Below, piece after piece: positions 335 through 34,700 of a stretch of DNA of 64,000 nt (its first letter is position 1; each line of letters opens with the position of its first letter). The translations under genes and the position numbers were made by a program. Origin of the DNA: Sabellastarte sp. h YS-2021 (lineage: Eukaryota; Annelida; Polychaeta; Sabellida; Sabellidae); contig OZ024940.1 of assembly GCA_964017235.1 (NCBI GenBank), positions 4,712,001 to 4,776,000 of the forward strand, read 5' to 3'. The notes beneath the pieces are model-generated. The model made no database searches. It was not told the origin of the DNA and worked only from the letters and a program-made list of their open reading frames with translations.

Positions 335-417
335 GATCCCAGTTCATCGTCCTCTCCTGGATCCTGATCCATCACCTCCAGCTCAACCACCTGGCCGTGT
401 TTCTGATCAACCACTGC
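335..417 (-). CDS. E-Syt exon 10: C2A Ca2+-loop region, last exon in window
   Basis: The 83-nt exon encodes AVVDQKHGQVVELEVMDQDP then GEDDELG. It matches HPGQELEIELFDEDPDKDDFLG of E-Syt C2A, with the acidic loop-3 aspartates kept. The acceptor is tttgcag and the donor gtaagt. It ends in phase 2, and the following exon is outside the window. Confidence 0.92.
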
Positions 418-1676
418 CTGCAAATATTTTACATCAATCATCAATTTATTTATTAATATTTATTAACTTATACACTCATTTTTATTAATTTACTCATAAA
501 TATTTATTAATTGGCAAGGATGCTAATGCCCTTTCAAAACATGGCAAGATGAAGCCATTCTGTTCTGTAAATCAAACACACTAAGTTGGGGTTTGACATT
601 CCATGCCATGGCCCAGGCATAATTAAATACAAAGCAGCCTCATTTGTACAGGAAACCATATTTACATCTTATTGATTTAGCCAATCAGAATCAAGGATAC
701 ATCTGTGTCATTTTATGCAGCGTTCTTACCGGCCGTAAACACGACCTCACAGCCTGTAAATTGGTCAAGAACGGTCTCACAGGTGGTATAGACCACTAGT
801 GAGTTGGGTGCCTCCAGAGACTTTTCAAACTTTGACCTTCACCTCTAATGACAACAAAGATGCAGAATACATGTGCTTTCGTTATAAAAAACATGTTAAA
901 TAAAGTGATTCGTTACTCTGGATTTTGATAAATAACCTCAGAAAACGTCTAACAAATGAAATATATATCTTTTGCATGGTGGATAGCGAAATATTGTGAT
1001 TTTTTTTATTTCTTTCTCTTTGTGATTTCTGTTTGTTTACATCCACACAATCATAAACACAGGCGGTGAATTGTTAAGAGCGGTCAAACTTTCCACTGGT
1101 AGGTACCAACTCAAAGGTCGTGTGCACGGGCCTTCTGAACGCGACATTAGAATCCCCTGTTTCATAGTATGGAAAACTATTTGGTTCTCGTGTTTTGTTA
1201 AATAAGGGGCGGTTAACCGGTAACTGACCGGGAAGTAGAAGACGAGAAACCGGAAGGAAAAAATCGCTAGCATGGACCTTAGAGACCGACACAGAATTGG
1301 TATTAACAAACAAGCAATCAGTGATCGAATGAATCAGTCACATATCTAGGGACACGAGACAAGTTTGTTTTTATATTTATATAAATACTAAATAGTACAA
1401 GATAGATACAAATATTTATCCAAAATTATCTACTTGAAGGTTTTCAGCACTCACCTCAAAGTACTGGTTCCATTTTGGGTTCACCGTCTCTTTGATCACC
1501 TTTGTCTTGAACACCTGAGCACCCACTGTATGGAAAAAAAATATATCAACACTTTGTGGCTGAGGCAAAAACAAAGCGTCCCACATGCGGAGACTGAAGG
1601 TTTGTAAAATTAGTCAAAACATATATTTGACAAAGTTGAAGAACAATTACGTGAATAATCTGAAGAGTAAATGTAT

Positions 1677-1707
<31 letters not shown>

Positions 1708-4700
1708 CAGATTTTAAAAATAAATATTGATTTATTTAACCCTTTTTTAAAAAAAAATCAATAACTAGAAATCGGCCGCCCTGTTGATAGTAGATGCGAA
1801 TAGAAACAGGATAGCATAGAAGAACACACATTATCATGTGTAATGTCCACCCATGAACCTTTTGCCCAAATTGTACAGTAGTCTTACAAGACCCTGTTTC
1901 ATTTGTAAAATATATCAATGATGCTTAAATATTTGTTAGTGTAGATGTAAATTATTTCAGCTTCATGCCTTTTTGCATTGGTTGGGTTGAAAATTTTGAC
2001 GAAATCACTCTATCTGGCATGGTTAAGAAGATAGAAGCAAATTCCTGTTTTTCTATTTTTGGCAAAAATTTGAAAATTCAAAATGGCCGCCATTTTTGGG
2101 AAAAGGAAATTTTTTTGAAAATTGCCAAGAGTACATTTTCTAGATACCCTATGGGTCGAAAATTTCAACGAAATAACTCTATTTGGCACGGTTAAGGCCA
2201 GTTTGTGTTTTTCCATTTTGGGCAAAAATTCGAAAATTCAAAATGGCTGCCATTTTTGGGGAGGGGAAAATTTTTTGAAAATTGCAAAGATTACATTCCT
2301 TAGATACCCCGTGGGTTGAAAATTTCGACGAAATCGCTCTATCTCGCATGGTTAAGGAGATAGAAGCAAATTTGTGTTTTGCCATTTTTGACAAAAATTT
2401 GAAAATTCAAAATGGCCGCCATTTTAGGGGACGGGAAATTTTTTTTTAAATTGCCAAGAATACAATGCTGAAATACCTGTGGGTCGAAAATTTTGCCGAA
2501 ATCGCTCTATCTCGCACGGTTAAGGAGATAGAAGCAAATTTGTGTTTTGCCATTTTTGGCAAAAATTCGAAAATTCAAAATGGCCGCCATTTTTGGGGAG
2601 GGGAAATTTTTTTGGAAAATTGCAAAGATTGCATTCCTTAGATACCCTGTGGGTCGAAAATTTCGACGAAATCGCTCTATCTCGCACGGTTAAGGAGATA
2701 GAAGCAAATTTGTGTTTTGCCATTTTTGGGAAAAATTCGAAAATTCAAAATGGCCGCCATTTTTGGGGAGGGGAAAATTTTTGGAAAATTGCAAAGATTG
2801 CATTCCTTAGATACCCTGTGGGTCGAAAATTTCGACGAAATCACTCTATCTCGCACGGTTAAGGAGATAGAAGCAAATTAGTGTTTTGCCATTTTTGGCA
2901 AAAATTCGAAAATTCAAAATGGCCGCCATTTTTGGGGAGGGGAAAATTTTTTAAAAATTACCAAGAGTACAATGCTCAGATACCCTGTGGGTCGAAAATT
3001 TTGACGAAATCACTCTATCTGGCACGGTTAAGGAGATAGAAGGAAATTTGTGTTTTGCCATTTTTGGAAAAAATTCGAAAATTCAAAATGGCCGCCATTT
3101 TGGGGGAGGGGAAAATTTTTGGAAAATTGCAAAGATTGCATTCCTTAGATACCCTGTGGGTCGAAAATTTCGACGAAATCGCTCTATCTCGCACGGTTAA
3201 GGAGATAGAAGGAAATTTGTGTTTTGCCATTTTTGGCAAAAATTCGAAAATTCAAAATGGCCGCCATTTTTGGGGAGGGGAAAATTTTTGGAAAATTGCA
3301 AAGATTACATTCCTTAGGTACCCTGTGGGTCGAAAATTTCGACGAAATCGCTCTATCTCGCACGGTTAAGGAGATAGAAGCAAATTAGTGTTTTGCCATT
3401 TTTGGCAAAAATTCGAAAATTCAAAATGGCCGCCATTTTTGGGGAGGGGAAAATTTTTGGAAAAATTACCAAGAGCACAATGCTCAGATACCCTGTGGGT
3501 CGAAAATTTTGACGAAATCGCTCTATCTGGCACGGTTAAGGAGATAGAAGCAAATTGGTGTTTTGCCATTTTTGGCAAAAATTCGAAAATTCAAAATGGC
3601 CGCCATTTTTGGGGAGGGGAAAATTTTTTGAAAATTGCAAAGATTGCATTCCTTAGATACCCTGTGGGTCGAAAATTTCGACGAAATCGCTCTATCTCGC
3701 ACGGTTAAGGAGATAGAAGCAAATTAGTGTTTTGCCATTTTTGGCAAAAATTCGAAAATTCAAAATGGCCGCCATTTTTGGGGAGGGGAAAATTTTGTTA
3801 AAATTACCAAGAGTACAATGCTCAGATACCCTGTGGGTCGAAAATTTTGACGAAATCGCTCTATCTGGCACGGTTATGGAGATAGAAGCAAATTTGTGTT
3901 TTGCCATTTTTGGCAAAAATTCGAAAATTCAAAATGGCCGCCATTTTTGGGGAGGGGAAAATTTTGTTAAAATTACCAAGAGCACAATGCTCAGATACCC
4001 TGTGGGTCGAAAATTTTGACGAAATCGCTCTATCTGGCACGGTTAAGGAGATAGAAGCAAATTTGTGTTTTGCCATTTTTGGCAAAAATTCGAAAATTCA
4101 AAATGGCCGCCATTTTTGGGGAGGGGAAAATTTTTTGAAAATTGCAAAGATTGCATTCCTTAGATACCCTGTGGGTCGAAAATTTCGACGAAATCACTCT
4201 ATCTCGCACGGTTAAGGAGATAGAAGCAAATTAGTGTTTTGCCATTTTTGGCAAAAATTCGAAAATTCAAAATGGCCGCCATTTTTGGGGAGGGGAAAAT
4301 TTTTTAAAAATTACCAAGAGTATAATGCTCAGATACCCTGTGGGTCGAAAATTTTGACGAAATCACTCTATCTGGCACGGTTAAGGAGATAGAAGGAAAT
4401 TTGTGTTTTGCCATTTTTGGCAAAAATTCGAAAATTCAAAATGGCCGCCATTTTGGGGGAGGGGAAAATTTTTGGAAAATTGCAAAGATTGCATTCCTTA
4501 GATACCCTGTGGGTCGAAAATTTCGACGAAATCGCTCTATCTCGCACGGTTAAGGAGATAGAAGGAAATTTGTGTTTTGCCATTTTTGGCAAAAATTCGA
4601 AAATTCAAAATGGCCGCCATTTTTGGGGAGGGGAAAATTTTTGGAAAATTGCAAAGATTACATTCCTTAGATACCCTGTGGGTCGAAAATTTCGACGAAA

Positions 4701-7700
4701 TCGCTCTATCTCGCACGGTTAAGGAGATAGAAGCAAATTGGTGTTTTGCCATTTTTGGCAAAAATTCGAAAATTCAAAATGGCCGCCATTTTTGGGGAGG
4801 GGAAAATTTTTTGAAAATTGCAAAGATTGCATTCCTTAGATACCCTGTGGGTCGAAAATTTCGACGAAATCGCTCTATCTCGCACGGTTAAGGAGATAGA
4901 AGCAAATTTGTGTTTTGCCATTTTTGGCAAAAATTCGAAAATTCAAAATGGCCGCCATTTTTGGGGAGGGGAAAATTTTTTGAAAATTGCAAATATTACA
5001 TTCCTTAGATACCCTGTGGGTCGAAAATTTCGACGAAATCGCTCTATCTCGCACGGTTAAGGAGATAGAAGCAAATTAGTGTTTTGCCATTTTTGGCAAA
5101 AATTCGAAAATTCAAAATGGCCGCCATTTTTGGGGAGGGGAAAATTTTTTAAAAATTACCAAGAGTACAATGCTCAGATACCCAGTGGGTCGAAAATTTT
5201 GACGAAATCGCTCTATCTGGCACGGTTAAGGAGATAGAAGCAAATTTGTGTTTTGCCATTTTTGGCGAAAATTCAAAATGGCCGCCATTTTTGGGGAGGG
5301 GAAAATTTTTGGAAAATTGCAAAGATTGCATTCCTTAGATACCCTGTGGGTCGAAAATTTCGACGAAATCACTCTATCTCGCACGGTTAAGGAGATAGAA
5401 GCAAATTAGTGTTTTGCCATTTTTGGCAAAAATTCGAAAATTCAAAATGGCCGCCATTTTTGGGGAGGGGAAAATTTTTGGAAAATTGTAGATTGCATTC
5501 CTTAAATACCCTGTGGGTCGAAAATTTCGACGAAATCGCTCTATCTCACACGGTTAAGGAGATAGAAGCAAATTTGTGTTTTGCCATTTTTGGCAAAAAT
5601 TCGAAAATTCAAAATGGCCGCCATTTTTGGGGAGGGGAAAATTTTTTGAAAATTGCAAATATTACATTCCTTAGATACCCTGTGGGTCGAAAATTTCGAC
5701 GAAATCGCTCTATCTCTTACGGTTTCTGAGATATTAGCAAATTACTCAAAAGTAGTACTGAAAATACACAATGAAGTACCTAAATGGCTATTACTCATGT
5801 ACTGACAAAGCTATCAGTCCCAAATGCAATACCAAGCGAGCTATGGACATAACAATCTTGTATTCAAAATTGTAGTAAAATATCTTTAATTATTTTGGCT
5901 TAAATGCACGGAAACCAATGGGTACTGAAAATAGCTGTACTTAAGTATTACTCAGTAAGCAAAAGAGGTACAACAGCCAAAAGCAATCCCAAGCAAGCTA
6001 CTGACCCAATAAGCCTGCATACCAAATTTGGTGACAATAGCTCTAATACTTTTCCTTTAAATGAGCGGAAACCATGCGTGACGCCGGACATCGGACGCCG
6101 GACGCCGGACGCCGGACATCGGACATCGGACAGCGAAAAAAGCAAAAATAATATATCCACCCCCCAGGGGGGTGGACATAAAAATGGATTGCATTATTTC
6201 ATTTTCAATCATTTTGTAAAGATAACTGCATTCAATATAACTTCTTTTTAATTACCTTACATTTCTTGAAATAATCTCAATATATCACTGCAAATGAATT
6301 AGCCTATGAAAATCTTTCCTGTAATGTAGAAATATAACAAAGCTTTCTTGAAAGGGTTCCGGCAGATTTTGATTCAGAAGTTTAAACACTACACAATTGT
6401 CTAAATATTGTTTTTCCTATTTTGAAAAACCGAAATGAAGATGTCTCTGAAAATTTAACTTTAACTTTACTGATTTCAAAATAAATTTTCTCTTCTTCAA
6501 ATAAACAGTAAACTTAAACTCAGTCAAAGAATATTTTTATTGCATAAAAACGTACTTACATATATGTAAGTATTTTTATTTATAAAAATTCCAATTACAA
6601 TAAAATTAACCAAATTTACAAGAATTTCTCTTCAAAAGGTGACCCCTGGTGAATTGAAGCACCAAGATACTCACAAAAGTAAGGTTACGGGTAAATACCA
6701 ATGAAAAAGGCTTCTTTACGGACCTGCTATTTAGTTCAACTGCATAGCGTTTGCCATTTTATCAAAAAGAAATCCCAGTGATGTTAAAGCATTATCTCTC
6801 GTGTTTTGCAATGCAAAATTTGACAAATTTGACACTGTTAAACAGCATGAATATATACACTTTGGCAATGTGATAAATCCATTTATTATCCACCGCGCAT
6901 TGAATTTGACCCTTATAGGGGGATATACAGAGTAGGATATATTATTTTTTGTATACAACGGCACCCCGGTACCATGGATAATTAGTGTCAATAACTTCCA
7001 CTTTTCCACTTATATCTCTGAAACTATGTAACCTACAAATATGTATTATACATCATTAGAAAGGTATTTTTATAGTGCTTCTACTCTTTTGCATTGCATA
7101 AAAATCCATGCAGAAATGGCTGAGAAATCGGAAGTTAAAGACTGAGGGGTTATATAAACTGGTGTCTCTGTATATATGATATCCCTTTCCACATTCTCTC
7201 TTTAAATATGGATTTATTTAAGTCATAAAGCGGACCAAATGGTGGATAATAAAAGTAAAACATCCCTTGTTAGACATATACAGAAAAATATATCACTCAT
7301 GAAGGTTACCAATACAATACTCGTGCTATGCACTTGTATGATACTGTTATCTTCATTCACGATATATTTTTTCTGTTCATGTGATCCGGGAAGTTTTCCT
7401 ATTGTATAATACACCAGTTACCAGTTGTTACCTCCACCAAGCAGGTCATGTTTTCAGGTGCGTTCATCTGTTTGTCTGTGTTCATGATAACTCTACAGTT
7501 AATGTACAGATCTTTCATTATGTGTGGAGTGTATTACCCACAAGCCACAGGGGCATTTTCATAAATTTTTCTGGAATTTTCCCACAATTTACAGCCAGAT
7601 AGGGATTTCTTCATTTTTCACTGTAAACACACTCACCGTATACACAACAGTAGGGGTCGGACTTTCCTTTGCCGATGATTTTAATGTCTGCAGCCTTCAA

Positions 7701-10700
7701 CTCTCGGCCAGCCACCACGTTAAGCCGCAGCACCCCCTGGCAGGCAAAAACAGAACAGTAACCACCATGCATACACATTATTAGTTAAGAAAGAATACAC
7801 ATGGCATTAATGGCAAGGTCACACCTGTCCATGACGTCGTTTCTGTATCGTATTTGCAAGTGACACCCTGATGCTTAAGCAACCGAAAAAAGGCCTTGTC
7901 TCTGGCTAGTAAATGTTGAACAACGAGCCGTCAAATGTAAGTCCATCCGACACCCACTTCACCCCCCCCCCACCCACCCACCCCCATTATGAAGACAAGA
8001 AGTGCGCAGACTATCTGAAACAAAGCAGTGCGCATGTTTCTGCATACTTTAATCTGAAGCAATAAATGGACAATCGTCGATTATAAAGGGCTAAATGATA
8101 CAGACAAAATATGGTACGCCACAGAATGTACGTAAAAATATTATATTTATAATAATATTGAATCGTCAATAATAATAATAATACTGAACCGATCTTCTTA
8201 TATTGAACCGGTTGGTACTGTACAACGATCCACAAAGGCAGAAGAGGTCATTTGGTTGTAGTTTATGACCCGAGCCTGGACAGGTGTGACCTAGAGTGTA
8301 ATGTTGTTAAGTACACACCGACAGCTCCACCTAGCAGATAAAAAGAAGACTAAGAGGCTGTTCAACTTCACAGCATCAGGATTGAAAGAGGATTCCGAGC
8401 TGGTTTTCAGAGAATTTTGGAGTATGTTTATGACAACCATGTGTATTCAGCATGGCATTCCATCCTTCCATTCACTACTCCCAAAAAACTGTTGAAAATG
8501 GCAGCAGTTTCCGCAAGTCGCCATCTTACAAGTGTATTCTTCTTAGGAGCCTATGCCATTTATAAAGTTTGTATGTTTGTAAGTCAATCGTTATTGATTA
8601 TTGTTATCACAGGACATTCATTAGGGTTCCTTATCCTAACTCTGATGGTCTTTTCGCAGCAGTTGCATTGAAGAATAAACACTGTTACATTAAACAGCCA
8701 CTCAAACAGATGACCTTATACATGGACACACCATCCTTTAAGAAGCATCAATATCTGGTAGGCACAATATATTGAAGGTAAGTGAGTGCACTCAGTGTGT
8801 GAAATTAACACCTACCCCTCTGTCCAAGACTGGTAGAGTAAGAAATCTAAAATTCGCCAGGAATCTAAAATTCGCCACCTCTAAAACCTTCGTTAATTTT
8901 ATGAAGAAAATGATGTTTTTGTCTAAAAATTGGTATTTTTCAGTTCAAAAAGCCTTAATTTACTATACAGTCAACAAATCTCACCACAATTCATTTATTT
9001 TAGTAGTATTTTCACCTGTGGCGAATTTCAGATATGTGGCAAATTTTAGATGTCTTACTCTAACCATTCCCACTGACCTGTTCCTTTTCTCATTACAAGT
9101 CTGGCTCGCCAAAATTGAAGACATTTTTAGCATTTTCCAACTATAGAACATAACATCACACTATTAATTCTTTGCCACTTGGTCAATTTTGAAACTCAAT
9201 ATTGATTTAATCAACATTGAAATACAGACTGGCAATTTTTGCTATGGACCTGTAACATTTTTGAGTTGCAGGTCTGGTGGTCTTTGAAAGTTGATACTTT
9301 ATTAAAGTAGTATTTTCATATTTTTTTTTTTCAATCTGAAATGTGTCTGGACATAGGGGTCTGTAAATTAGACTGGGTTAGGTATTGGAGGATAAACACA
9401 GGGAAAACTCATATACAGTAAACTCTGTGTAACTACTGACTTTTTTATTATCCACCGCGAGCCTTATATGACCTGTTTCATGAATATAGAGAGGCGGATA
9501 TACAAACTTCGTCTGCCGTTGTGTCCATCTTCATGTTATTGACCACACCCAAAACCACAACTGAAGGCTCAGCCTTTCCAATAAAACACGGTCCAAAGAG
9601 TGAACGACTTATTGTGACAGGCCTGTAGCAGTAGTCACCCCATTATAAGCATTATCAGAATTAATGGCTAGCACAGTAAAGCACAAGACTTTTGAGCAAC
9701 ACAGATGCTTCTTTTCGAAGAACACTTTTGAACAGCTCATGTTTATCAGATCGAATATTCACATCTTGGAGAACTAAACATGAACTGTTGTCAAATATGA
9801 CTATCATTTACTCAGTTGTGCTTAAATGTTTTTATAGTTTATTCGAAAAGTGAATATTTTAAAAATATTGATGTTAGAATATATTTCTTTGGTTTAGTTA
9901 AAAAGCATTCGTAAGTGTATTCAAAAACTTTTCAAATGCATACTTTGAAATTATTGTCTTCAAATTCATATTCATGGAAATGATTCTTCTTCAATAATCC
10001 ACTTGCTAACCATATAGATGTTGGATTTTGGGTATCCAAACTTTTCGATTATCCGCTCTGATGGCAGATCCCCCAACGAGTTGGGATAATAGAGGTTCTA
10101 CTGTATTTGGTACAAGTACTGGCTGACAGTCCACTCATCCCTTATTAATAATATTTCCTGATGTTCAGAGCTTTAGTTCCAGTTATGTCTAAACTCGAGT
10201 GACACTCTTTCTAGTTACACAGACACTACTGTATTTGAGCAAGTAGAGAATTAAGACTTTGATATACAATTCCGGTATTACAATGGCATCAGCTGGAATG
10301 GACTATATACCTGGGTTGGTATTTCATAAAAATATCTCAAACTGAAATACATTTCCTTGAATTTAGGGGATAGACCATTACATTGAGTACATTAGAGTAC
10401 ATAACTCAACTGTAAACTCAACTATTATATTTTAAAGTAAGTATACCCTTAAACTCAGTCTCAAGCTTAGGGGTTAGGGTCTTGAGATTTTAGCCCTATA
10501 TTTAGAGATTATATTCAAGTTTGCATGGCAGGAGTCTTAAATATTTGCGTACATACAAAGATGGCTGCATTAGAAATTTTGTTTGATCACATTATTACTT
10601 TACATTTAGCAACAAACTACTTGGGTAGGATTTCATTTGCAAGATTGACTTTGAGTGTACAATAACCGTGATTTTGAGTGTGAGATATGTTATGAATACC

Positions 10701-13700
10701 AAACCAGGGAACTCTCAAGTGTTAGTAAAGCTGACAGGTGTTAAAATGTCTACTACTCCCTGACATAATTTGGCATATACCTCCAACTGGCACAAAAGCT
10801 AATACAGAACACCAGTCTAGAGTTGATTGACATTAGCAACCATCATTCATTTTACAGGAAGTGACCATACCAAATAAGGCAGGGGGATGGTGGCCAAAGT
10901 GACCACAGACATTTCTTGTTTTCAGAAACTTCTGTATGCAGATTCTGAGTTCTGGGGGGTACTGATATTGTTTCAAGCATCAACAATATGACCCCAATAT
11001 TTTGCAGACACACAAATGGACAATTACATAACCTCCCTGACAAAGGTAACAGTGGCAAGCAAGGTTTTTTTAATGTTGGAAGTTCTGCCAAGACTTGGCA
11101 GGGAGTTATGTGTTAACAGTACCATAAACTACACAGTAAGGGTCGCTGTGCTTTTTCCCTCTCAGACTGATGTCTGCGGCCTTCAGCTCCTTGGCTGCCA
11201 CAATGTGAAGCTGTAAAGCTCCCTTAAACACACACGTACACAATGACTGTAACAACTGCACTTAGGCCTCGCTTATTCAACATTCTGTTATCCCAATATA
11301 TATATATATATATATTTATTTATTTATTTATTTGGGTTTTAACATTGCTTTCAACACTGTACAGGTCATATCACAAGTGGCAGTTTTATGGGGAGAGGAA
11401 ACCAGTACATACAGTTGGTCAAGGTTCTGTGCTGTAAACTGCAGACCATCGGTAGGTAACGACCAGTTTTGCCATATAAGGTCTGGTATTTGACGAGTAG
11501 TTTTATGGGCAGAGGAAACCAGTACATACAGGTGGTCAAAGTTCTATACTGTAAACTGCCAACCAGTGGCAAGCAACTACCAGCTTTCCCACTTGAGGTC
11601 AGGCCAGGATTCAAACTCTGATCTCAGAGGTGGAAGGCAAGTGTGTTTCATTTGGGGTGTGAGCAAGTAGTCGAGGCTCATTAAACCAGGTAAATTTCAT
11701 CAAAAGTCAATCCCAATTTTCAGGGTAGACTGCTGCATTTATAAAAATACCATATTGAACTGGTTTACGTGTTTATGTACTAAAACATAAATAAGACATC
11801 CTCCTTACATTAAATCACCTAATTCTCCATTTTTAACGTGACATTCACTATTTTGCATGGTGATATCAGCTAATTCCAACGATTTATGGCTTTTTACCTT
11901 TATCTTTTTTCATTTAAGGGAGCTGCCATATTGTATGTTGTTTCCTGTCAAGGTGCATACTAAACACTTTGAGGACTCGATGTCGAGCCGAAATTTCATC
12001 CGCAAGGAATCAACCCCAATTATTTGTACTCATCATACTCTAAAATTTCACAAGTCAAACGTCTTCTATATCTGTGACGAAATTAATTTCCCTTACCATA
12101 CAAACTCTATTTCATCTGCCTCACCATACAACATACGCATTGTTTGTATATTTTACTTGATTTTAAGTGGGTTTTCTTATCACATGAGGAAACAGGATAC
12201 TCGAGAGACACAGTGTCTGTTAATTAAACCATATTAAACCCCATTTAGAACCATTCATGTTACTACAGAATTTCACACTGAAGTGAAATATAGTGTCAGG
12301 TTTTACCAGATTTTACCCATTTTCTGTGGCTTGTATTAAATGTGGCATGGGGTCCTTGAGAGATGCAAGGACAACAATGTCTAACAACTAAACAAGGTGT
12401 TAAAATAAGCCCATTTATAACCATTTATGCTAACAGAGTTCTCATCACAGAATTCAGATATAATTTTCTTCTTTTTTTAACAAAGACCTGAAGCATGGGG
12501 TACTTCAAAGGGGTCCGGTTACCAGCCAAATAGTGTATAAGCTCCGCCTGAAACCATTTATTTTAAAAGAGTTTTCAGTTCTGAATTCATAAGCAAATGT
12601 CCGATTTTACTGATTCTACCCGATTTGATTGCTCGTTTTTGTTTTTTACCCGAGCCATGGGGTACTTCAGAGAGGCCAGGCTGCCAGCCAAATAGTATGT
12701 AAACCACCCCCTGAAACCATTTATTTTAAAAGAGTTTTCAGTGCTGAATTCATAAGCAAATATCCAATTCCACCTGATTCTACCTGATTTGATGGCTCGT
12801 TTTTATTCTTACCTGAGGCATGGGGTACTTGAGAGAGGCCAGGCTGACGGTATCCGCGAGTTGTATGGGGATCTTGTTTGGCAGCACCATGTAGTAGTTG
12901 ATCTGGTCCTGTACCACTCCACGCAGGGTGTTACTGAAACACGCGTGTGCAGTTAGATAGAGTGCAAGCCTCCGCTAAGGCAGCGGACTATCTCCATGTA
13001 CCGCCATTTTACCAAAATATTGCATTATTATTATTATTATTGGAGTAATATCAAAACCACAAGCCCAATATCACTGAAAATACAACTGTTAAATATTCAG
13101 GATTTTTTTTTTCTTTTTTTAGTACCCAGTTTCAAATCTTTCACAAAATTTTATCCTACCTTCCTTTGGTCAGGCCAAACTGATCTCTTATATTGCCAAT
13201 GAATATAAACAAAATATATAGACAAAAAAACTAGTATCAGAGATGCCCATACCCCACAGCCTGGGGAAATAGCTGAGCTATAGAAGAAGGGACAGAATAC
13301 AAAGATCGGGAGATGTTGCACTCCTAACTAATGTTAAAACTTCCTATACCTTACTGTTTCCAAAATATACAAGATTTTAAAGGTCAATGTCATTATGGCA
13401 AGGTCAAAGGTCAAATCAAAGTCACACCATGATGTTGCACACCTACAGCCCCTAACCAATGTCCCTACCAAGTATCAACTTCTTATACCTTACAGTTTCT
13501 GAGATATAGCCCAGATAAAAGATAAAGATCAAGGTTACTCCAGCAAGGTCGAAGGTCAAATTAAGGTCAAACCATGATGTTACACACCTACACCCCATAA
13601 CCAATGTCAGTACCAAGTATCAACTTCCTATACCTTACAATGTCTGAGATATAGCCCGGACAAGATTTTAAAGTTCAAGGTCACTACAGCAAGGTCAAAG

Positions 13701-16700
13701 GTCAAATCAAGATCACACAATGATGCTGCACACCCACACCCCCTAACCAATGATCCTACAAAGTATCAACTTCCTACACCTTACAGTTTTTTTTTAGATA
13801 TAGCCTGGACAAACTTTTTTCCAATGCCCGCTTGCCCATCCGGACATGGGTGAAAACAATACCCCAACAGCCCTTCAAGGCTGTGGGGTAAAAAAAAATA
13901 AAGACAATAAAAACACTGCTTTAACAGCAGTAATATCAGAGAACCTGATGGCATTTATAAGATTTTAAATCAAACTTCTTGACTTTTTACACCAACTTTT
14001 GAAACAAAAGAAATTGATAAGTTACTTACCTGAGTACTGGCACATCTAGAATGTTGGCCGTGTTGGTCAGATCAAAGTCCACATTCTGTACAATGAAAAG
14101 AGACATTAAGAGATGATACAGAAGGCAAGTACTCAGTGACCGACAGGCACATCCAGAATGTTGGACATGTTGGTCAGATCAAAGTCCACATTCTGTACAA
14201 TGAACAGAGACATTTAGAGATGATAGAGAAGGCAAGTATTCAGTGACCGACAAGCACATCCAGAATGTTGGACATATTGGTCAGATCAAAGTCCACATTC
14301 TGTACAATGAAAAGAGACATTAAGAGATGATACAGAAGGCAAGTACTCAGTGACCGACAGGCACATCCAGAATGTTGGACATGTTGGTCAGATCAAAGTC
14401 CACATTCTGTACAATGAACAGAGACATTTAGAGATGATAGAGAAGGCAAGTATTCAGTGACCGACAAGCACATCCAGAATGTTGGACATATTGGTCAGAT
14501 CAAAGTCCACATTCTGTACAATGAAAAGAGACATTAAGAGATGATACAGAAGGCAAGTATTCAGTGATACTTGTTGGGAGAAGGAACTGAACCCTAGTTC
14601 TGCGACAATGTTTGTAGAAGTTTGATAGTTCACTCGTTTACTGCCCCAAATTTGAAGTTTGGTTCAAATGTATGAAATTCGGACTTTTGCAAAATGTTTA
14701 CAAATCACCAACATCCCACCACATCCCAAAGGTTCCTATTTTCTTCTGTCTAAATAACCTGAATTTTAATGATTTATTTATTTATTTGGGGTTTTACGTC
14801 GCTTTCAACACTGTACAGGTCATATCACGATGGGTGGTTGGAAGGGCAGACCTGTTTGACCTCGAAGGAGGGGCCCAAGGTCAAGTCTGACCCTATCAGA
14901 AGATTCCTAGCCCATGATTTCCTATAAGTTAGTTTCATATTGCAAACCTCTAGGGTCAATAATAAGTGAGTTATAAGCACTTTTAAGTTTGGCTATCCTT
15001 GTTTGACCTTGAAGGGTCAAATCTGACCACATCAGAAGATGCCCAGGTCATGATTTCCTATAGGTTGGTTTCACATACCAAACCTCCAATAATAAGGGAG
15101 ATGTAGGCACTCTTAAAGTCCGTTACATGGGGTGCTTTGGCACTCTGTGGATGACCTTGAATGAAGAGCTTCAAAGTCAAATGTGTGCAAGCTTATAGAG
15201 GACATGTATATCTGTTATACATATCACCTATGAAGAGATTCGACCTTCTACTTATGAAAGAAATACCCAGGGCGGCCATCTTGTCTTTCAGAATCAGGCT
15301 AATTTCAGTCCCAAAGAAGCTTACCTCGTAATTAAGATATCCTGCAAATTTGGTGATGCTACTGATTAAGTTTTCCACTTAGAGCGTTAACATTGAAAAT
15401 CTCTCTACACGTGGCAGTCGCGGCGGCATACTGAACGCTAAACTGGTGGATCCAATGATTCCACATAATTCTTACACTTCGAAATTCATCCAAAAACACA
15501 GCAACCCCAGTATGTTATCAGTATTTCATAATCTACCAGTAATTCACTCTCTACTCAAATGACAACTGTTCTGTGATTTTGCTGTGACTTGCTGACTTAC
15601 CGGGGTGTTGAGGAAGAAGACATTGAGGCCTCCAATGATTGGAATCACTTTCACCAGGGGGCGCATCTGTACACGCAGCGTGCCCTGGATCTGAAAATTA
15701 AAAAAAAAATAAATCACACTACATGTCATGAAATGTATTGACACAAAATAAACTGTACACTTCAGCCATCTTGGAAGAAATCCACTGGGAACATGAATGA
15801 GCTTTATTATTTTTTCACTAGAGCACTTTCTGCCATAACTTTACCCTTGAAAGAGTTACCCTTGAAATTCTTACTGTAAAAAATTCATATTATTTTCATT
15901 TTGAAGACAGACTAAGTTGAGGTCAGTCTCAGAATAATATTAACACAGCTTTTGGATGACTTTATGATACCAAATAAGAAGCAAGATTACTCTTTCTATT
16001 CCAAATAATTCATTGTTTTATTCTTTTGTGAGCAAATTACTCTTTATAACCCTACTACAACCTCTAGTGTTAATGTTTTTATTTTCTTTTTATCCCATAC
16101 AGGAGTTAGTTATATGTATATGTTACTATCTTTTTTTTCTTTAATTAATCATTGTGGGAAATACACAACCTAACCATTCCAATGGAAAAATTCATAATTA
16201 TTTTGGCATTCACTTCATCAAAAAGACTATTTTGCCCATTTCATCCAAAGGACAGAAGAGTTGAAAATTAAATGAAATGGACAATTTTAGAGCTGGGTCA
16301 GAACATATACAAAGTTCAGGGTCTTATGTCTTGCTCAACAATCAGGGTCCTATAGGGACAGGCCCGCAGCATTCTCACTTGTGGGGGACAAACCCACACA
16401 CAGAGGTGACAGACTGGGATTAGATACCAAACTTGCTAACCCACTAGGCCACCGAGAACCTCTCTCCAATAGACAGAAACACTGCAACTATATAACCATG
16501 AAATGTGACCCATATAACCACATAATTAAGAAATAACCACATATTTAAATAACCAGATGCCTAACTTGCTAACCCACTAGGCCACCGAGGACTTCAGTTA
16601 TACATGCAGACTTGGCTGAATGTGTTAAGAAGAAATCAGTCACTTCTTCTACTGTGGAATGTCAGTCTGTTCTGCATATATTAACGTCCAAATGGAGCGT

Positions 16701-19700: not shown

Positions 19701-22700
19701 GTACTTTGGATGACCTCTGGATGACTTTCAATGAAGAGCTTCAAGGTCAAATTTTTGCATGCTTACAGAGGACATATATATGTATTACATATACCAGCCA
19801 TAGGACTTTCTGTATATGAGAACTGCGCCAAAATGTGAAAAAATGGCCAAAATCTGACCTTTAAGACCCCACCAGTGACCTTGAAATTGAAGGTCAAGGT
19901 CATAAAAAATAGCGTTCGTTTCAATGCCCATATGTACCCATATACCAACTTTGAAAGTTCTAACTAAAATATTTTTTAAGTTATCACGTCCAAAAGGAAA
20001 TCTCTGCGGCAGCAGCAACGGCATGACTGTACTGAATCCTCAGTATCTCCGAATTCCGTCCGGGGATACAATAATTCATTACTCTGTTCAGTTCCACAAA
20101 CCTGGAGATCCTTGATGCCAGCAGTGATGCCTCTCACAGCCACCTTGATATCCGAGTCACTCATGTAACTGGAGACAGAGAGAAAGAAAACAGGAAAAAG
20201 TACAGACTCAAAGTACACCACAACACAACAGAGAGAAACAGACTGGGGGAGTGGGGGACAAAAAGGTATTCAACTGAAAAATATGTACATCACTGAAACA
20301 AGAGGAGAGTGCCCGTGAACGGGCACTGTGTCAGCTGACTGAGTGTTTTTGATTTGTGAAGGTGATTAGAGGACAGAATAATTATCAGGAAAAGGGCTGT
20401 ACAGAAATACAGTAAATGGTAACTGAACAGCAAGTTCGAAAGAAATTCCGAAGCTGACAGAAGAAAAGGATAAAAAAGTTGTGCCCTGTAAATGGTATTA
20501 TGAAGGAAAATAACAAGGTAATTGTTTAAGTGTAAAAAATAGGTTAAAACATATTTAAAGAAATACTACAAATGCAATATCCTCGTTCGACCTTGAAGAA
20601 GGGGTCCAAGGTCAAATCTAACCACACAAATACATTCCCAGCCCATGATTTCCTATGGTTTACCATTCCAAACCTCTAGGACCAATTATAAATGAGTTAT
20701 AAGCACTTTTAAGCTTGGCTGTCCTCATTTGACCTTGAAGGATGGGTCCAAAGGTCAAATCTGACCATACCAAAAGATTCCGAGCCAATGATTTCCTATG
20801 GGATGGTTTACCCTCCCAAATCTCTGTCACCAATAATAAGCGAGTTGTAGGCACTTTCAATTTTCGCTATCCTCATTTGACCTTGAAGGAGGGTTCCAAG
20901 GTCAAATCGGACCATATCAACAGATTCACAGCCCATGATTTCCTACAGGTCGGTTTATCATCCCAAACCTCTGGGACCAATAATAAGCGAGTTATAAGCA
21001 CTTTTAAGTTTGGCTATCCTTGTTTGACCTTGAAGGAGGGGTCATTGAAGGTCAAATCTGACCACACCAAAAGATTCCCACCCCATGATATCCTACAGGT
21101 CGGTTTATCATCCCAAACCTCTAGGATCAATAATAAGGGAGATATAAGCACTTTTCATGACTGACAAAAAACACCTGTGGCGGCCATCTTGTTTCTCAAA
21201 ATGAGGCCAAAAATATTCCCAGACAACATTTTATGGTTATTAATATATACTGCAAACTTAAGAAAGCTAGCTATAATATTTTTTTTCATCAGAGCAGTAA
21301 TGGTGAAATCTCTCTCTACACACTGCTGCTATCCAGTGGATACAATGATTTACTAAACAGTGAGAACCTGAAAGTAGCTATTGCTCAGCTATGCCATGAC
21401 ATAGAGGTCTGCAATTTCACTATGTTATAGCTGACCAAAAATTCTGTGAATAACATATTTAACAAATTACTCTAAATGTAATAGTTTTCAAGTTACAACT
21501 GATTTACTCAACAGTGAGAACCTCAAAGGAACTATTACTCAGCTATGCAATGAGCTACATGTCTGAAATTTTACTATGTTATAGCTAACCCAAAAGTAGG
21601 TGAACAACATATTTAAGCAAACTACTGTAAATGCAATAGTTTTCAAGCTACAACTGATTTACTCAATATGTGAGAACCTGAAAATAGCTATTGCTCCGCT
21701 ATGCCATGAGCTATAGGTCTGTAATTTCACTATGTTATAGCTGACCCAAAAGTAGGTGAACAATATATTTTAACAAAATACTCCAAATGCAATATTTTTC
21801 AAGTTATAGCTGATTTACTCAACAGTCAGTACCTGAGAATAGCTATTGCTCAGTTGTGCCATGAGCTATAGGTCTACAATTTCACTATGTTATAGCTGAC
21901 CCAAAAGTAGCTGAATAACATATTTGCATAAATTTCTGTAAATGCAATAGTTTTCCAATTATAACTGATTTACTCAACAGTGAGAACTTCAAAGTAGCTA
22001 CTACTCAGCTATGAAATGAGCCACAGGTCTGAAACTTCACTATGTTATAGCTGACCCCAAAATAGGTGAATAACATATTGAAACAAAATACTCTAAATGC
22101 AATAGTTTTCAAGTTATAAGTGATTTACTCAACAGTGATAACCTAAAAGTAGCTATTACTCAGCTATGCTATGAGCTACAGGTCTGAAATTTTACTATGT
22201 TATAGCTGGCCCGAAAGTAGCTGAATAACATATTTATACGAAATTCTCTAAATGCAATAGTTTTTAAGTTACAAGTGATTTTACTCATGATGGAAGTTAC
22301 TGAAAAGCCCAAAAGTAGCTATTACTCACTTAGCTATTGAGACAGACACCCAACTTACTCACCATATTGTAGCTATGAAAAAAGTAGCTGAATAACATAT
22401 TTTAACAAAATGCTCTAAATGCAACACTTTTCAAGTTATAAGTGATTTACTCAACAGTGATAACCTAAAAGTAGCTATTACTCAGCTATGCCATGAGCTA
22501 CAGGTCTGAAATTTTACTATGTTATAGCTGACCCAAAAGTAGCTGAATAACATATTTATACGAAATTCTCTAAATGCAATAGTTTTCAAGTTATAAGCGA
22601 TTTACTCAACAGTGATAACCTAAAAGTAGCTATTACTCAGCTATGCCATGAGCTACAGGTCTGAAATTTCACTATGTTATAGCTGGCCCAAAAGTAGCTG

Positions 22701-25700
22701 AATAAGATATTTATACGAAATTCTCTAAATGCAATAGTTTTTAAGTTACAAGTGATTTTACTCATAATGGAAGTTACTGAAAAGCCCAAAAGTAGCTATT
22801 ACTCACTTAGCTATTGAGACAGACACCCAACTTACTCACCATATTGTAGCTATGAAAAAAGTAGCTGAACAACATATTTTCACAAAATGCTGTAAATGCA
22901 ACACTTTTGAAGTTATAAGTGATTTAGTACATGATTTCATGAATTTTAATGCATTAAAAATTATTAAAAAAATTTATTAAAAAAAAAGTAAGACAGATCC
23001 AGGTCTCATACTCACACAAGAGAATCTACCTCTGGCCTAGTACATATATGCAAGATATGAGAGAAATCCCTGCAATAGTCGCTGAGAAAATTGTGATAAA
23101 AAGTTGAAATTTTCACACTTTTGGTGGGGGTACCCCTCTTGTAATGTCTCTAGCAAACAGACGAACACACAGATTTGCATGCCTTGAACAATTTTTCATC
23201 CTCGATAGATAAGGTATCTTTTAAAAAAAAAAGCACGTCTCTAGGCCTTGTAGTTTTGGAGAAGAAGTTGTTCACGCGGACGCGGACGCCCACGCCGCAC
23301 AGTGATGACATAATGTCAGCTGACTGACAAGTCAGCTGACATAAAAACAGAGTGAAGTATCTACACTAGACATGATCGGAGAAAATAAAATGTAGTTAGT
23401 AGTGCAGTGGCACGGCCGTTTGTACAGACTCGATTATCACCCACCTTGGAGCGATTAATCATTTGATTTAACTTACAGGGATTTCTGAGCAATATTTTAT
23501 TATAGAATATCCAAATTAGAAAATGCGAGGTCACTGAATTCTGTGGGATTTCCTAGCAATATTTTAACATAGAATATGAAATTTAGATTTCCGCTGGATT
23601 TCCTGTAAGATTTCCTTGGCCAGTGAGCAGTCAAAACATCTGTATACATGCATCTATTATGTACATCGGAAATGTTTTGAATGGTTGCCATGATGAGTGA
23701 TAATATAAGCTAGCAAATAGAGGTGAAATCTGGAAAAAAAATGGCGAGTTTTTATTATACTTTCTTTAAAATTAATGAATTCTACATGTTGTAAAGTATT
23801 TTATTTTACTAGTGGCGTGAAAATAGGGGTTTAACTTGGGGAGTGATTCCATGTGGTTAGACTCGATGCATCAAAGGTGATGCCACCATCGATCAATGCA
23901 TCGAACAGACCACTAATCATCCCAGCTATAGTAGTTCTGGCTAACTTCCTTATGTACAGTACATCATACATAAGTAGTAACTAGAACCTCCAAGATCCAC
24001 TCTAAAATATTTCATTTCTCTGGCTGGATCAATGACCTTGTGAAGGGAAAGGTCAAAACTTGAAGTTCTGATAAATACTCAAAAGACTGGTTTCTGCTAT
24101 GATAACTGACAAGACCTCGTGAAAGGTCAAATTAACTGTGAACTTACCTGATTTCCAAATCCATGATGATTTCGTCTCTTTTCACATTGTCAATGTACAC
24201 TTTCACTCCTCCAATCCTTGGCGGCTGTAACCATAGAAACAAGTGTGTAAAATTACACATCAGAAATCTGATGGACTTGAACAGAGATGCTGAAAAAGTA
24301 TGTCCGGGTAACACCTAAAATGGAAAAACTGGAAATCTCATTTTACTTAAGCAGAACCCAATTTGTTCACTGTTGAGTACCTCAGGGGCCGTATTCACAA
24401 AAGGGATCAACCTCAAGTTGAGCTGAACATCAGCTCAAGTTTACTATAAACAGCTGTAAACTTGAACTGATTTTTTGGCTCAACTTGAGCTCGATCCCTT
24501 TTGTTGAATACCAACCCAGTGGCCTAGTGCTTGGCAAGTTTGGTTATCACCTCGATGTGGGCTCAACTCCCACAAGTGGCAATTCTGAGGGATTGTCCCA
24601 ATATGACCCTGGCTCTTGAACAGGATGCAAAACCCCATCTTTGGGAGATGGAGACTGTGGTTGGATAATGGAAGATTAGTAATAATAATTGCGGTAGGGA
24701 AATACAAATTTGGAACAGTGGAAATGAGTTCACAAAACTGACAACATGGATAATACAAGGTTGGATAACAGAGGTTGCATTGTATTAGATACGAATTTGG
24801 GAGATTTGAAATGACTTTTATAAAATCGACCATATATGGATTACAGAGTCAGAAATTCCATTATGGTTTGTCTTGTGTGTATTAAGTTGGTTTTATTTAA
24901 AGACATATGGTACGTCCACCCACATAAGTCATTTATATTCTAAAGTGGAATGTGAACTCAAACATAGGCTCAGGCGTAAACAAAGTATACAAGAAGGGGT
25001 TCACTATGTTTGTTTTGTTGTTGTTTTTTTTTTGCATAGAATTTGATAGAAAGTAAAAACGTCAACTGTCATAAGACACACTATGTACCGTAAAACAGTA
25101 TTTAAAGCTTAACCCTTGTCACTAAGATTTATTTGCTGTTTTATGGGGCATTCCACAGCCAGGGTCATATTGTGATGGGTAGTTTACGGGTGGAGGAACC
25201 AGAGCATACTAATTGGTCAAGATTCTGCACTGTAAACCACCGGGCATCGGCAAGTAACTACCAACTTTCCAACATGAAGCGCCCGGGCAGAGATTCGAAC
25301 TGGCGACCCTAGAAGTTGAAGGAGAGAATATTACAGTAAAACATGCAAGCAAGCTATATATCCATCTTTAGACTGTTACGATTCTAGACCAAAAGAAACA
25401 TTTTAAAACCTTATTTAGTTCCCTATATACTCTTCATGAGAGCTGGCACAATAACTTGGCGAAATAATTCATAATTTTACGGATAAAAATCAGTTTTGCC
25501 CAGGAGTGTAACTTCCTAAATCAAGTGAATTTAACATGGAGTCTGACTGGTTTTATTGTAGATGTTTGTTTACTTGTACCCTTGAGACACAGAGAATAGT
25601 ATGACTGTAGGAGTGACATGCTGCCTTTTTTTAACACAAGCCTATCACATGACTTTGGTGAATAAAAACCAATTATCTTCAATTGGAAAAAAAAATCAAA

Positions 25701-28700: not shown

Positions 28701-31700
28701 AAAAATTGGCCATCTGCAATACTTTCAGAGGTAATTCGCATTTACTCTTTTTGAGTAGGTGAGCAATTAGCTATGGGTCTGAAACTTCACCAAGTGAAAG
28801 CTCTTTGGGATAGCTGCTCTGCAGAGATACCCTGAAGATAAAAAATTTCGTCGAAATCGCTCTATGTAGCACGGTTTTCGAAATATAAGCATTTTTGTGT
28901 TTTGCAATTTTTACGCAAAAATTCGAAAATTCAAAATGGCCGCCATTTTTGGCAAGATAAAATTTTTTTGAAAATTGGCATGGCTACTCTGCAGAGATAC
29001 CCTGTGGGTCAAAAATTTCGTCGAAATCGCTCTATCTAGCACGGTTTTCGAGATATAAGCATTTTTGTGTTTTGCAATTTTGCGAAAAATTTGAAAATTC
29101 AAAATGGCCGCCATTTTTTGCGAGAAATTTTTTGTTTGAAAATTGGCATGGCTACTCTGCAGAGATACCCTGCGGGTCAAAAATTTCGTCGAAATCGCTC
29201 TATCTAGCAGGGTTTTTGAGATATAAGCATTTTTATGTTTTGCAATTTTTGCGAAAAATTCGAAAATTCAAAATGGCCGCCATTTTTGGCGAGATAAAAT
29301 TTTTCTCAAAATTGGGATAACTACTCTGCAGAGATACCCTGAGGGTCAAAAATTTCGTCGAAATCGCTCTATCTAGCACGGTTTTCGAGATATAAGCATT
29401 TTTGTGTTTTGCAATTTTTGCGAAAATTTCGAAAATTCAAAATGGCCGCCATTTTTGGCGAGACAAAAATATTTTGAAAATTGGGAAAAGTACTCCGCAG
29501 AGATATCCTGCGGGTCAAAAATTTTGTCGAAATTGCTCTATCTAGCACGGTTTTTGAGATATAAGCATTTTTGTGTTTTGCAATTTTTGCGAAAATTTCG
29601 AAAATTCAAAATGGCCGCCATTTTGGGCGAGACAAAAATTTTTTGAAAATTGGGAAAACTACTCCGCAGAGACACCCTGCGGGTCAAAAATTTCGTCGAA
29701 ATCGCTCTATCTAGCACGGTTTTCGAGATATAAGCATTTTTGTGTTTTCCTTATTTGGAAAATTCGTAATGATTAATTAATCATTAATTACTCGGCCATT
29801 TCTTGACCAATCAATGTCAAAATCTAATGATTTCCAGATTTTAATAGAATGAATGTATTTGCCAAGTTTCAGGTGAATTGATAAAATTCCTTTCAAGTTA
29901 TCATCCGGACAAGCTTCCCCATCGAAAAAAGACATTTTTGGTCATGTGACCTCTCTGATTGGTTGAAATGTCACTGCAGCATATTCAAAAAAATTCCCCA
30001 GGGCTACTGCCTAAACCTGCCAAATTTGAAAAGAATCCGCCTAACGGTTACAGAGTTATAAGGAAAACAAAATGCGGAGCCGGCGGAGCCGGCGGAGCCG
30101 GCGGAGCCAGAAGCTCTCCCATACACAAACAAGCGTCCCTTGTGGGACGCTTAAAAAGACTGTTTTACAACATCAGAATCAGGATAGCTATAATTAGATT
30201 ATTTGTTAGAATGTTTTATTCTGTGGCTTTGTTTTGGGTGTGTCCAATTTACAGATGTAAAGTCTGCATTATGGATTCAAAAACTAGGTCTGTAAAACTC
30301 CTGAACAAGATTAATGCTGGTTTTTCTATTCAATTTAGCCCGGGGACTCATTCTTTTAACAGGACAACTTGTGCAGATATGAAATACAGGGGCCATGGTG
30401 GTGCAGTGGTAACACACTCGCCTCCCACCTCTAAGGCCGGCAGTTCAAACCCTGGACTTTATGTGGGAAAGTTGGTAGTTGCTTACCAATGTTCGGTGGT
30501 TTACAGTTGAGAACCTTGACCAACTGTATGTACTGGTTTCCTCTGCCCACAAAACTAGTAAACTACCAGCCCTCATATGACCTGTACAGTGTTGAAAGCA
30601 GCATAAAACCCCAAGTAAAAAAGATATTAAATACAATTCCAATCTCAGTATCAAACCCTGCTTTTAGCTTTGCAAAGTGATCGATATTAAAATATCATTT
30701 TACACTCTAAAAGTGATCTGAATGCTTGGTATTTGAACATATTTTTAAAATTCTTTGAAGACTGAAAATTCAGACAACCCAGAAGCTGATTAATTCTTGT
30801 TTGTATGTTTTATTTGATCCAGGAACAAATATTTTTAACATAGGAATAGATCTCCTAAAGTTTCTAAAATATAACTCATGTATGTATCAGTTGATTGTTC
30901 CTGCTGTATAACACTCGCTGCTTCATATATTTTGTCTGTAATGCTATGTTCTGGTTTTTTTTTTGCAATTTTAATTTTTTTTAACAAGTCAACATATGTA
31001 GAAGTGACATTTCAGTCTTGTGACTTGAAATAAAACTTCTGACTTGCATACAGCATGTATACTCTGTTCACAGTGTTTCATTCTGGCCTTAACAGGTAGT
31101 GGTGTCACACTTATGCTGTAGGACAAAGTTTGCATAGGCCTAAAAAAGTAATGGTGAGACACTTAAGCTTTAGGACAAAGTTTGAACAGGTTCTAACAAT
31201 CCATGATGAGACATTAAAGCTATAGGACAAGTGTGGACAGGTTCTAACAAGCCATGGTCAGACATTAAAGCTGTAGGACAAGTATGGACAGGCCATAACA
31301 AGCCATGATGAGACACTTTAGCTATAGGACAAGTGTGGACAGGTTCTAACAAGCCATGATGAGACACTTTAGCTATAGGACAAGTGTGGACAGGCCCTAA
31401 CAAGCCATGATGAGATACTTTAGCTATAGGACAAGTGTGGACAGGCCCTAACAAGCCATGATGAGACACTTTAGCTATAGGACAAAGTTTGAATATGGGC
31501 CCTAACAAGCCATGATGAGACACTTTAGCTATAGGACAAGTGTGGACAGGCCCTAACAAGCCATGATGAGACACTTTAGCTATAGGACAAAGTTTGAATA
31601 TGGGCCCTAACAAGCCATGAGACATTTAAGTTTTAACCTATAGTACAAATGTGGATGGGCCCTAGCAAGCCATGATGAGACATTTAAGCTATAGGATAAA

Positions 31701-34700
31701 CTCTGAATGGGCCTTAACTAGCTATGATGAGACACTTAGCAATATGATCAGTGTAAACAGCCCCCAACTAGCAGTGTTTAAAGACACCTATACTATTGAG
31801 TAAGGTATGAACAGGCACAAGCAAACAATGGTGAGGCACTTATTGTAGTAAAAGTGTGAACAGTCCCTGAGAAGCGGTGGCGAGACATTGAATCTGTGAG
31901 TTATATGTTTATTGACGAACCCATTAAAGAGAGAGGAATAAAACTGCTGCAAGCAGGGCTCAGTGGCAACATCTTGGGTACATTTTTTTAAACATGCAGA
32001 ATTAGCGCACTGAGTTCCCCTTTATGGGGAAGATATTGTGCTTACAAAGCAGTAGATTAGATTAGAATTAAGTATGGAGTAGATGATGCAGCCTTAAAAA
32101 ATCTAATTTACTCTAATTATACTTTTACAGCCACTTCATCTCTGTACTATCACCCTGTACACTGTACAAGCAGAATCGATGCTCCAAATTGATAAAGCCA
32201 ATCGACATGCATGGATCAGTAGGGATGGGTTGGTATTAAAATATGTAGATTGGGACGCCACTAGGGTTCTTCCAAATGTACATTTATTGAGCTGAGACGT
32301 ACATATATTTTGAAAATCTAACAAAAGTATGTACTTTATCGTGTACTCCTACAAAGTAACATTCAAATGTTTGTCTTGATTATATTGACAGGTTAAACTT
32401 TTTCTGAAAGGCCTGAAACTGATGGAAGACATTTTTCCCAAAATATTCTTGCTTGCCAATTGAGAATCCTATCCACTGAAAAGTACAGTTAATGTGAAGC
32501 CTCAGAAAAGAAGCATGACTCATACATAACAACCCTGGTTTTTCATTTACGACCAGTTTGTGTCATATGTCTAGCAAAATTTTTTTCAGTCACATGCATA
32601 CTTACGTCTTAAGTACCCATATAATGAACCCATAAGGAAAAAACTAAAAACCCTACAGCTCATGTAAATATCAAGTGTATTGTACAGACATGCAGAGTTT
32701 CTAACAGTGTGTAGGCTCAAAATGTCAATGTCTCGTCTGTTCAAAGCAGTTTAAGCTGCATTCCCATACTGCTGATCCCTACTGCCGGATTTCTGATCCC
32801 GGTGTTTCCCCACAGCAGTTTATAAAATGGTACATGGATAATAGAAGTTGGTAAAAGCTGCAGAAAATGATGTCATTTGAGGTCAACTGACAGTTTTATG
32901 AAAATATTTTCAAAGCTGCTTGATATCAAACAAAGAACGATTACTTTGCTGCTTATTTGTACTCTTGATACTTCAAAGCTCTATACTTTAAAGGGTACTA
33001 TACAAATTTTGTGCTATATAAATGTTTCTATTATTATAAATTTATTATCACTGACGTCATCGTCACAACCCCACTGAATGGGATTAACTGCTACACTGAG
33101 AAACTTTCAAAGTCTGAAGTTTATATACCAACAACTCACAATGTCTCCCAGGTCGATCTTCTCAAACTTGAAGGGTGTGAGGCTTTTTGGCAGAGAGTTT
33201 TGGACCTGTGGCTCTACAGATTTCCTGAGCAGGTCCTGTGTGTAGTCACCAATATACGGCCACATCTGCTTGATGATCTTATTCAGCCACTCCGCCTTCT
33301 CTATGTCAGGGAAGTACACCTGAAAGAATTGAAAATACACCTTAGTCAACCAATCAGTCTTCTCTATGTCAGGGAAGTACATCTGAATGAATTCAAAATG
33401 CACCTTAGTCAACCAATTAGTCTTCTCTATGTCAAGGAAGTACATCTGAATGAATTCAAAATATACCCGAGGGAAAAAAGTAGGTGGAAATGCCAAAAAA
33501 TAACCAGAGGCCAAACAGTGTGGCAGGAGGCTGGAGAAACACTGCTGTCATGAATCCAGATTATCACCTTGGGTGTTGCAAGGCGGGAAATAGAAAGTTG
33601 GCCTCCTAGAAAAATTGGCTTGGAAAACTGGCCTCCAAAAACAAAAAAAGCAAATTGGTTTACCCTCAAATTTGTTGGGATTGAAAATTGGCCTGACTGA
33701 AGTTTACTTTTAACGATCATAAATAATACTTTAGGCATAAATTAAGACTAAATAAAAAAGCTAAAAGCAGGAACAAATTTGTTTGCGTATAACTTGTATA
33801 CATTGAATGTTTCTGGAAAAGTCATGTTTATATTTTTTAACCTAAAAATCTTTTTTCACACTCAGTAACATCCAAAGACCAATGGTAAAGCATGACAATT
33901 AAAGCTTCCTGATAAACATTTGTGCTGCAGAGAATTGGGGTTCAAAACATGTGTGGAGCTTTGTGTGGGTTGTGCTCAATCAATGCTCTGTAGACTGGGC
34001 ATCACCAGCAAGCCAACATAGCCACAGGTGTACATGGTATTGTTGGGTTTCACTGGTAATTGTTCCAGTTTTATTATACAATGTGACTACTCATGTCTTT
34101 TCCAGGACTATATACCATTGACCGATTACCATTGTTGTAGACAGTTTTTGTTGTAACAAATATTCACAACAGCAAAAAAAATAAATAAATAAATAAATAA
34201 ATACATAGAAATTGCTGCAGAGAACTAGGGTTCAATAGATTTGTGGTCACTATTGTAATAAATCAGTGACTTATTTTAAAGTAAACTTTTGCAATAGATG
34301 TTATCTGACAGGTGTTTATAACTTCCTTTATTGTATACATTACACAGAAAATGTATTATTTTAACCAATAAATATCAATGAATGATATGGCTTTCTGTGA
34401 GTCGATTTTTAATGATTTTACACCATTGAGCATAGATACTGGTCATGTAAAAAGCTTTCAGACTTTTTGCAAATTCATAATTCTGCCATTCAAAGGTTAC
34501 TTTTTAACAAAGCAACCACTGGCTACTTATGCATAACAGGGATTAGGACCTTGCATATGTGGGGGGCAGTACAACTATTTACCTAAGAGGGAGTTTTATG
34601 CCACCTTTCAGACTGCAATGTGTGGCATATTTAATAATCCAAGTTCATGACACACACGGTACTTGGTTAAGTAATACTTAAACCAAGTCAATTTCAGAAA

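Follow-up and report, generated by a model that had tools for sequence, protein, structure and literature searches.

The minus strand of a 64-kb stretch of DNA from the sabellid annelid Sabellastarte sp. h YS-2021 (contig OZ024940.1, positions 4,712,001 to 4,776,000; hereafter the window, whose own positions are used as coordinates) contains the N-terminal portion of an extended synaptotagmin (E-Syt) gene. We found that the start of C2A, the first C2 domain of E-Syt, is very likely encoded here by a tandem-duplicated pair of exons, 8a and 8b, which are predicted to be spliced in a mutually exclusive manner. Both exons are 100 nucleotides (nt) long and lie on the minus strand where the original prediction had placed them (Table 1). 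Between the two, 21 of 33 residues and 63 of 100 bases are identical, and each exon is preceded by a phase 0 and followed by a phase 1 intron, again as predicted. The pair is real and probably functional, and is a further case of an arrangement that has already been reported in other animals.

The identity of the gene rests on several lines of evidence. The SMP and C2A exons were placed by tblastn with pieces of human ESYT2, followed by splice-site reading, and exons 2 to 10 join into a single open frame of 281 amino acids whether 8a or 8b is used. Pfam recognizes PF17047 (SMP_LBD) in both forms (E 6.8e-47 and 6.7e-47, cut-off passed) and PF00168 (C2) directly after it (71.3 and 70.4 bits, E about 1e-19, cut-off 22). 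The best solved relative of both forms is human E-Syt2, structure 4p42, at 268.4 bits for the 8a form and 267.7 bits for the 8b form, and the alignment extends through residue 282 in each case. Like human E-Syt2 (PDB 4p42, 4npj and 4npk), the gene encodes an SMP domain and then C2A, with nearly all of the loop aspartates aligned; the human protein differs in that its loop-1 region is two residues longer than that of 8a or 8b. A search of solved structures with the 8b segment alone returned only weak matches (best E 0.66). Together, the exon reading, the Pfam domains and the match to 4p42 support the assignment of the duplicated exons to C2A of an E-Syt gene.

When either exon was used as a tblastn query against the window, the other copy was the sole strong match (E 1.9e-11), the next-best matches having E values of 2.1 (8b query) and 0.29 (8a query); no third copy was thus found in the 64 kb. 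Similarly, a search of the species' own genome (1,785,957,881 bases in 647 contigs) with the 8a protein as query and an E cut-off of 10 gave two matches among the best candidates scored, namely 8a and 8b themselves. The intron sequences that flank the two exons, compared over 100 nt without gaps, are identical at 18 of 100 and 23 of 100 positions, which is the level expected by chance, and the duplication is therefore old.

The original prediction held that the reading frame enforces a choice between the two exons, and our reconstruction bears this out. Either exon joins the end of exon 7 (12813) to the start of exon 9 (1525) in frame; since each is 100 nt long with phases 0 and 1, only the inclusion of one of the two preserves the frame. 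Inclusion of both yields a product ending in VYGGAAA, and skipping of both yields WVLRCSRQR, with a stop within ten codons in each case, so that productive messages must contain exactly one of the exons. We propose that exon 7 would be spliced to either 8a or 8b and then to exon 9, and that messages with both exons or neither would acquire an early stop and be removed, presumably by nonsense-mediated decay. With 3386 nt between them, the two exons are too distant for steric hindrance of the spliceosome.

One other mechanism that could set the choice is competing long-range RNA pairing between docking and selector sequences, of the kind known from insect Dscam and Mhc. In intron 9, a segment of 14 nt (7254-7241) can form a duplex with one of two partners, 9456-9443 in intron 8, which would loop out 8b, or 6896-6882 within intron 9 itself, at duplex energies of -21.8 and -21.2, and this triple layout arose in 0 of 200 shuffles; intron 8 also contains a perfect 16-bp inverted repeat (8292-8277 with 7831-7816) that arose in 0 of 100 shuffles. 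However, the shuffles do not preserve repeats, and the intron 9 partner belongs to a dispersed repeat, about 385 bp long and bounded by inverted ends, one copy of which occupies 6881-7267 on the minus strand. A genome search with 6870-7270 gave 6340 first-look candidates, and of the best 40, which were scored, all 40 matched over nearly the same span; excluding the query itself, these copies were 80-86% identical to it. The 16-mer recurs at three further places in the window when 3 mismatches are allowed, and the introns that precede 8a and 8b have no outstanding stretch in common (the best is 13 nt, E 0.066). Because the pairing is made by the inverted ends of a dispersed repeat, we regard an RNA-pairing mechanism as very improbable.

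A different basis for the choice is suggested by the splice sites, which we scored with approximate matrices, taking all AG or GT dinucleotides on the minus strand of the window as background. The 8b acceptor scored 7.37 and its donor 6.49, values that 0.25% of AG and 0.27% of GT, respectively, attain or exceed. For 8a, the acceptor scored -1.46 and the donor -1.41, values reached by 20.8% of AG and 18.6% of GT. Since the sites of 8b are strong and those of 8a weak, 8b is probably the default exon and 8a the regulated choice: 8b would be included by virtue of its strong sites, and 8a would be used only where a regulator assists it or silences 8b. As a candidate for such regulation, the hexamer TGCATG, a possible RBFOX-type site, stands roughly 30 nt upstream of the 8b acceptor. 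Intron 8 contains a single copy, close to the number predicted from the frequency of the hexamer on that strand of the window (19 in 64 kb); as it is not enriched, the site is a lead only. A possible alternative acceptor for 8a also exists, an AG 24 nt upstream (11246-11223, minus strand; score -1.04) whose use would add SLCTCVFK in frame.

The weakness of the 8a sites raises the question of whether 8a is decaying or hardly used, with 8b alone doing the work. This is what the low scores of the 8a acceptor (TAAG) and donor (ATG|GTACTG) would suggest, and the GVLR start and GKGKSDPY of human E-Syt2 are retained in 8b and absent from 8a. Low acceptor scores are found elsewhere in this gene, however: the exon 10 acceptor (-2.11) falls below that of 8a, and the exon 7 acceptor (-0.63) lies near it, which indicates that a low acceptor score alone is no sign of a dead exon here. 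Moreover, 8a is open, is exactly 100 nt long, keeps both aspartates and is as close to the corresponding segment of human E-Syt2 as 8b is (BLOSUM62 scores of 74 and 73, respectively).

The pattern of substitution between the copies likewise speaks against decay. Identical bases number 23 at first, 24 at second and 15 at third codon positions (each of 33), and a pairwise codon model gave a ratio of nonsynonymous to synonymous substitution rates (dN/dS, omega) of 0.137, or 0.186 with equal frequencies. An omega of 1 was rejected (twice the log-likelihood difference 13.4, p 0.00025; 12.0 with equal frequencies). A model in which one copy evolved neutrally throughout had a log-likelihood of -232.84, against -229.80 for a model of equal parameter number in which both were constrained, and was thus worse by 3.0 units. 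Taken together, the copies show purifying selection. Purifying selection and equal closeness to the human segment argue that both copies are used; weighing against this are that the codon test draws on 33 codons whose silent sites are saturated, that the 8a donor is the lowest among the ten donors scored, and that 8a, given sites that are very weak by our simple score, might be rarely used. On balance, we consider decay of 8a improbable and favor a pair of exons that are both in use.

What the choice of exon might do to the protein is suggested by where the two forms differ. Both retain the loop aspartate (in KAAD) and SDPY, as had been noted. In the alignment with 4p42, the loop-1 aspartate, the SDPY aspartate and four of the five aspartates of human DEDPDKDD are kept, the remaining one being a glycine. 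The forms differ at the tip of loop 1 and the neighboring strand, where one reads IKIIGKGK and the other ISLRGKKH, with similar charge. Human E-Syt2 C2A binds three Ca2+ ions through six aspartates from two loops (PMC8093936), the hydrophobic tip of loop 1 (L1) of plant SYT1 C2A inserts into the membrane (PMC8380656), and the C2A domain of E-Syt1 has been proposed to hold the lipid-transfer domain at the membrane in a Ca2+-dependent manner (PMC10023780). Because the forms differ exactly in the L1 tip region, altered membrane insertion would be the likeliest effect of exon choice. We therefore envisage two C2A forms that would share the Ca2+-binding aspartates and, through the changed tip and strand, would be tuned in their Ca2+-dependent binding to membranes. 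C2A adjoins the lipid-transfer domain, and these long-separated alternatives for the first third of C2A offer a natural test of what loop 1 and the strand contribute.

The original prediction knew of no description of this pair. With respect to this lineage that still stands: a literature search within open-licence papers returned no description of it among the matches listed. The kind of arrangement, however, is already known, since mutually exclusive exons affecting the first C2 domain have been reported for arthropod Esyt2 (Craxton 2010, PMC2823689), and Ivanov and Pervouchine (2018, PMC6071210) list a cluster of three exons in D. melanogaster Esyt2. Invertebrate Syt1 and Syt34 likewise have mutually exclusive exons that change a portion of a C2 domain (Craxton 2010), although these are other genes, and in Syt1 the altered part is the middle of C2B.

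The window pair thus resembles the arthropod Esyt2 exons in gene, in predicted mode of splicing and in the domain affected. The two differ in intron phase, as judged from a legend: that of additional file 43 in PMC2823689, which covers the arthropod alternative exons and both of their neighbors, gives only phase 0 and +2 introns, and the two 100-nt exons described here are followed by a phase 1 intron. Judging by the exon lengths, none of the other introns placed in the gene is of phase 1. As far as the legend goes, the exon boundaries are therefore probably not the same, in which case the arthropod exon could cover the region of exons 8 and 9 here. The phase difference hints at an independent origin.

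It could instead be that 8a and 8b, while spliced exclusively, descend from the same ancient pair as the arthropod exons, with a single origin before protostomes split. The shared gene and domain (PMC2823689) would fit such a history, and an exon pair in the C2-free Ca-alpha1T is reported to be protostome-wide (PMC9741552). We consider a single origin unlikely in view of the phases given in the legend and of the fact that the text of Craxton names arthropods only, though its set also included Lottia, Capitella and Helobdella (PMC2823689). The exon-duplication studies PMC3303723 and PMC9013439 make no mention of Esyt, nor does PMC9741552 of ESYT. We tentatively propose, as an idea that we rate somewhat short of probable, that a one-of-two choice of exons for the same piece of C2A evolved independently in arthropods and in this lineage, that in this gene it opposes a weak, regulated 8a to a strong, default 8b, and that the choice sets the Ca2+ or lipid response of lipid transfer at contacts of the endoplasmic reticulum with the plasma membrane. 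If the pair did arise apart from that of arthropods, its having evolved more than once would suggest that tuning at this position is truly needed, in line with what Craxton proposed for C2 domains generally.

The remaining exons complete the map of the gene within the window. Exon 1 joins exon 2 in phase 0 and encodes a long hydrophobic stretch that, judged by eye, is at the place of a putative transmembrane hairpin. The gene continues past the window start, where tblastn with human ESYT2 matched exons for the end of C2A and for C2B; the same kind of search did not find the C-terminal C2 domain in 40 kb of neighboring sequence.

Table 1. Exons of the E-Syt gene and a candidate regulatory motif, in window positions.
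Feature	Position	Strand	Description	Basis
Coding exon 1	39991-40299	-	309 nt; Met start; ends ...EELPAW; donor TGG|GTGAGT	open reading frame (ORF) reading
Exon 2, start of SMP domain	33140-33319	-	180 nt	tblastn and splice-site reading
Exon 3, SMP	24148-24224	-	77 nt	splice-site reading
Exon 4, SMP	20102-20168	-	67 nt	splice-site reading
Exon 5, SMP	15601-15690	-	90 nt	splice-site reading
Exon 6, SMP	14030-14085	-	56 nt	splice-site reading
Exon 7, end of SMP	12813-12933	-	121 nt; ends in phase 0; constitutive neighbor upstream of the pair	
Exon 8a, alternative C2A segment	11123-11222	-	GALQLHIVAAKELKAADISLRGKKHSDPYCVVY; weak acceptor and donor	
TGCATG, possible RBFOX-type site	7766-7771	-	before the 8b acceptor	
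Exon 8b, alternative C2A segment	7637-7736	-	GVLRLNVVAGRELKAADIKIIGKGKSDPYCCVY; strong acceptor and donor	
Exon 9, C2A	1455-1525	-	71 nt; starts in phase 1, ends in phase 0; constitutive neighbor downstream of the pair	
Exon 10, C2A	335-417	-	83 nt; loop MDQDPGEDD	

Several exons of the gene are accompanied by tandem arrays on the minus strand. At 14039-14567, 107-bp units (4.9 copies) repeat the acceptor and start of exon 6, giving five CATTGTACAG|AATGTGG sites; copies 1-4 read NVDFDLTNMSNILDV(L/P)VGH and then a stop, and only the last copy reaches the real donor. Similarly, three 63-bp units at 33278-33467 repeat the acceptor and start of exon 2; all of them, at 21 amino acids apiece, share one open frame, such that the choice of acceptor could lengthen the protein ahead of the SMP domain by 0, 21 or 42 residues. 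A degraded repeat of the 3' end and donor region of exon 7 lies downstream in intron 7 (12486-12846; 163-bp units, 2.2 copies). Two further arrays have a period of 169 bp: one, at 1983-5743 (22.4 copies), fills most of intron 9, and the other lies at 28805-29748 (5.6 copies). Elsewhere in the window, an ORF at 54813-55115 on the plus strand resembles, by eye, a trypsin-type protease (TAAHC), and one at 50694-51032 on the minus strand resembles a membrane transporter, also by eye.

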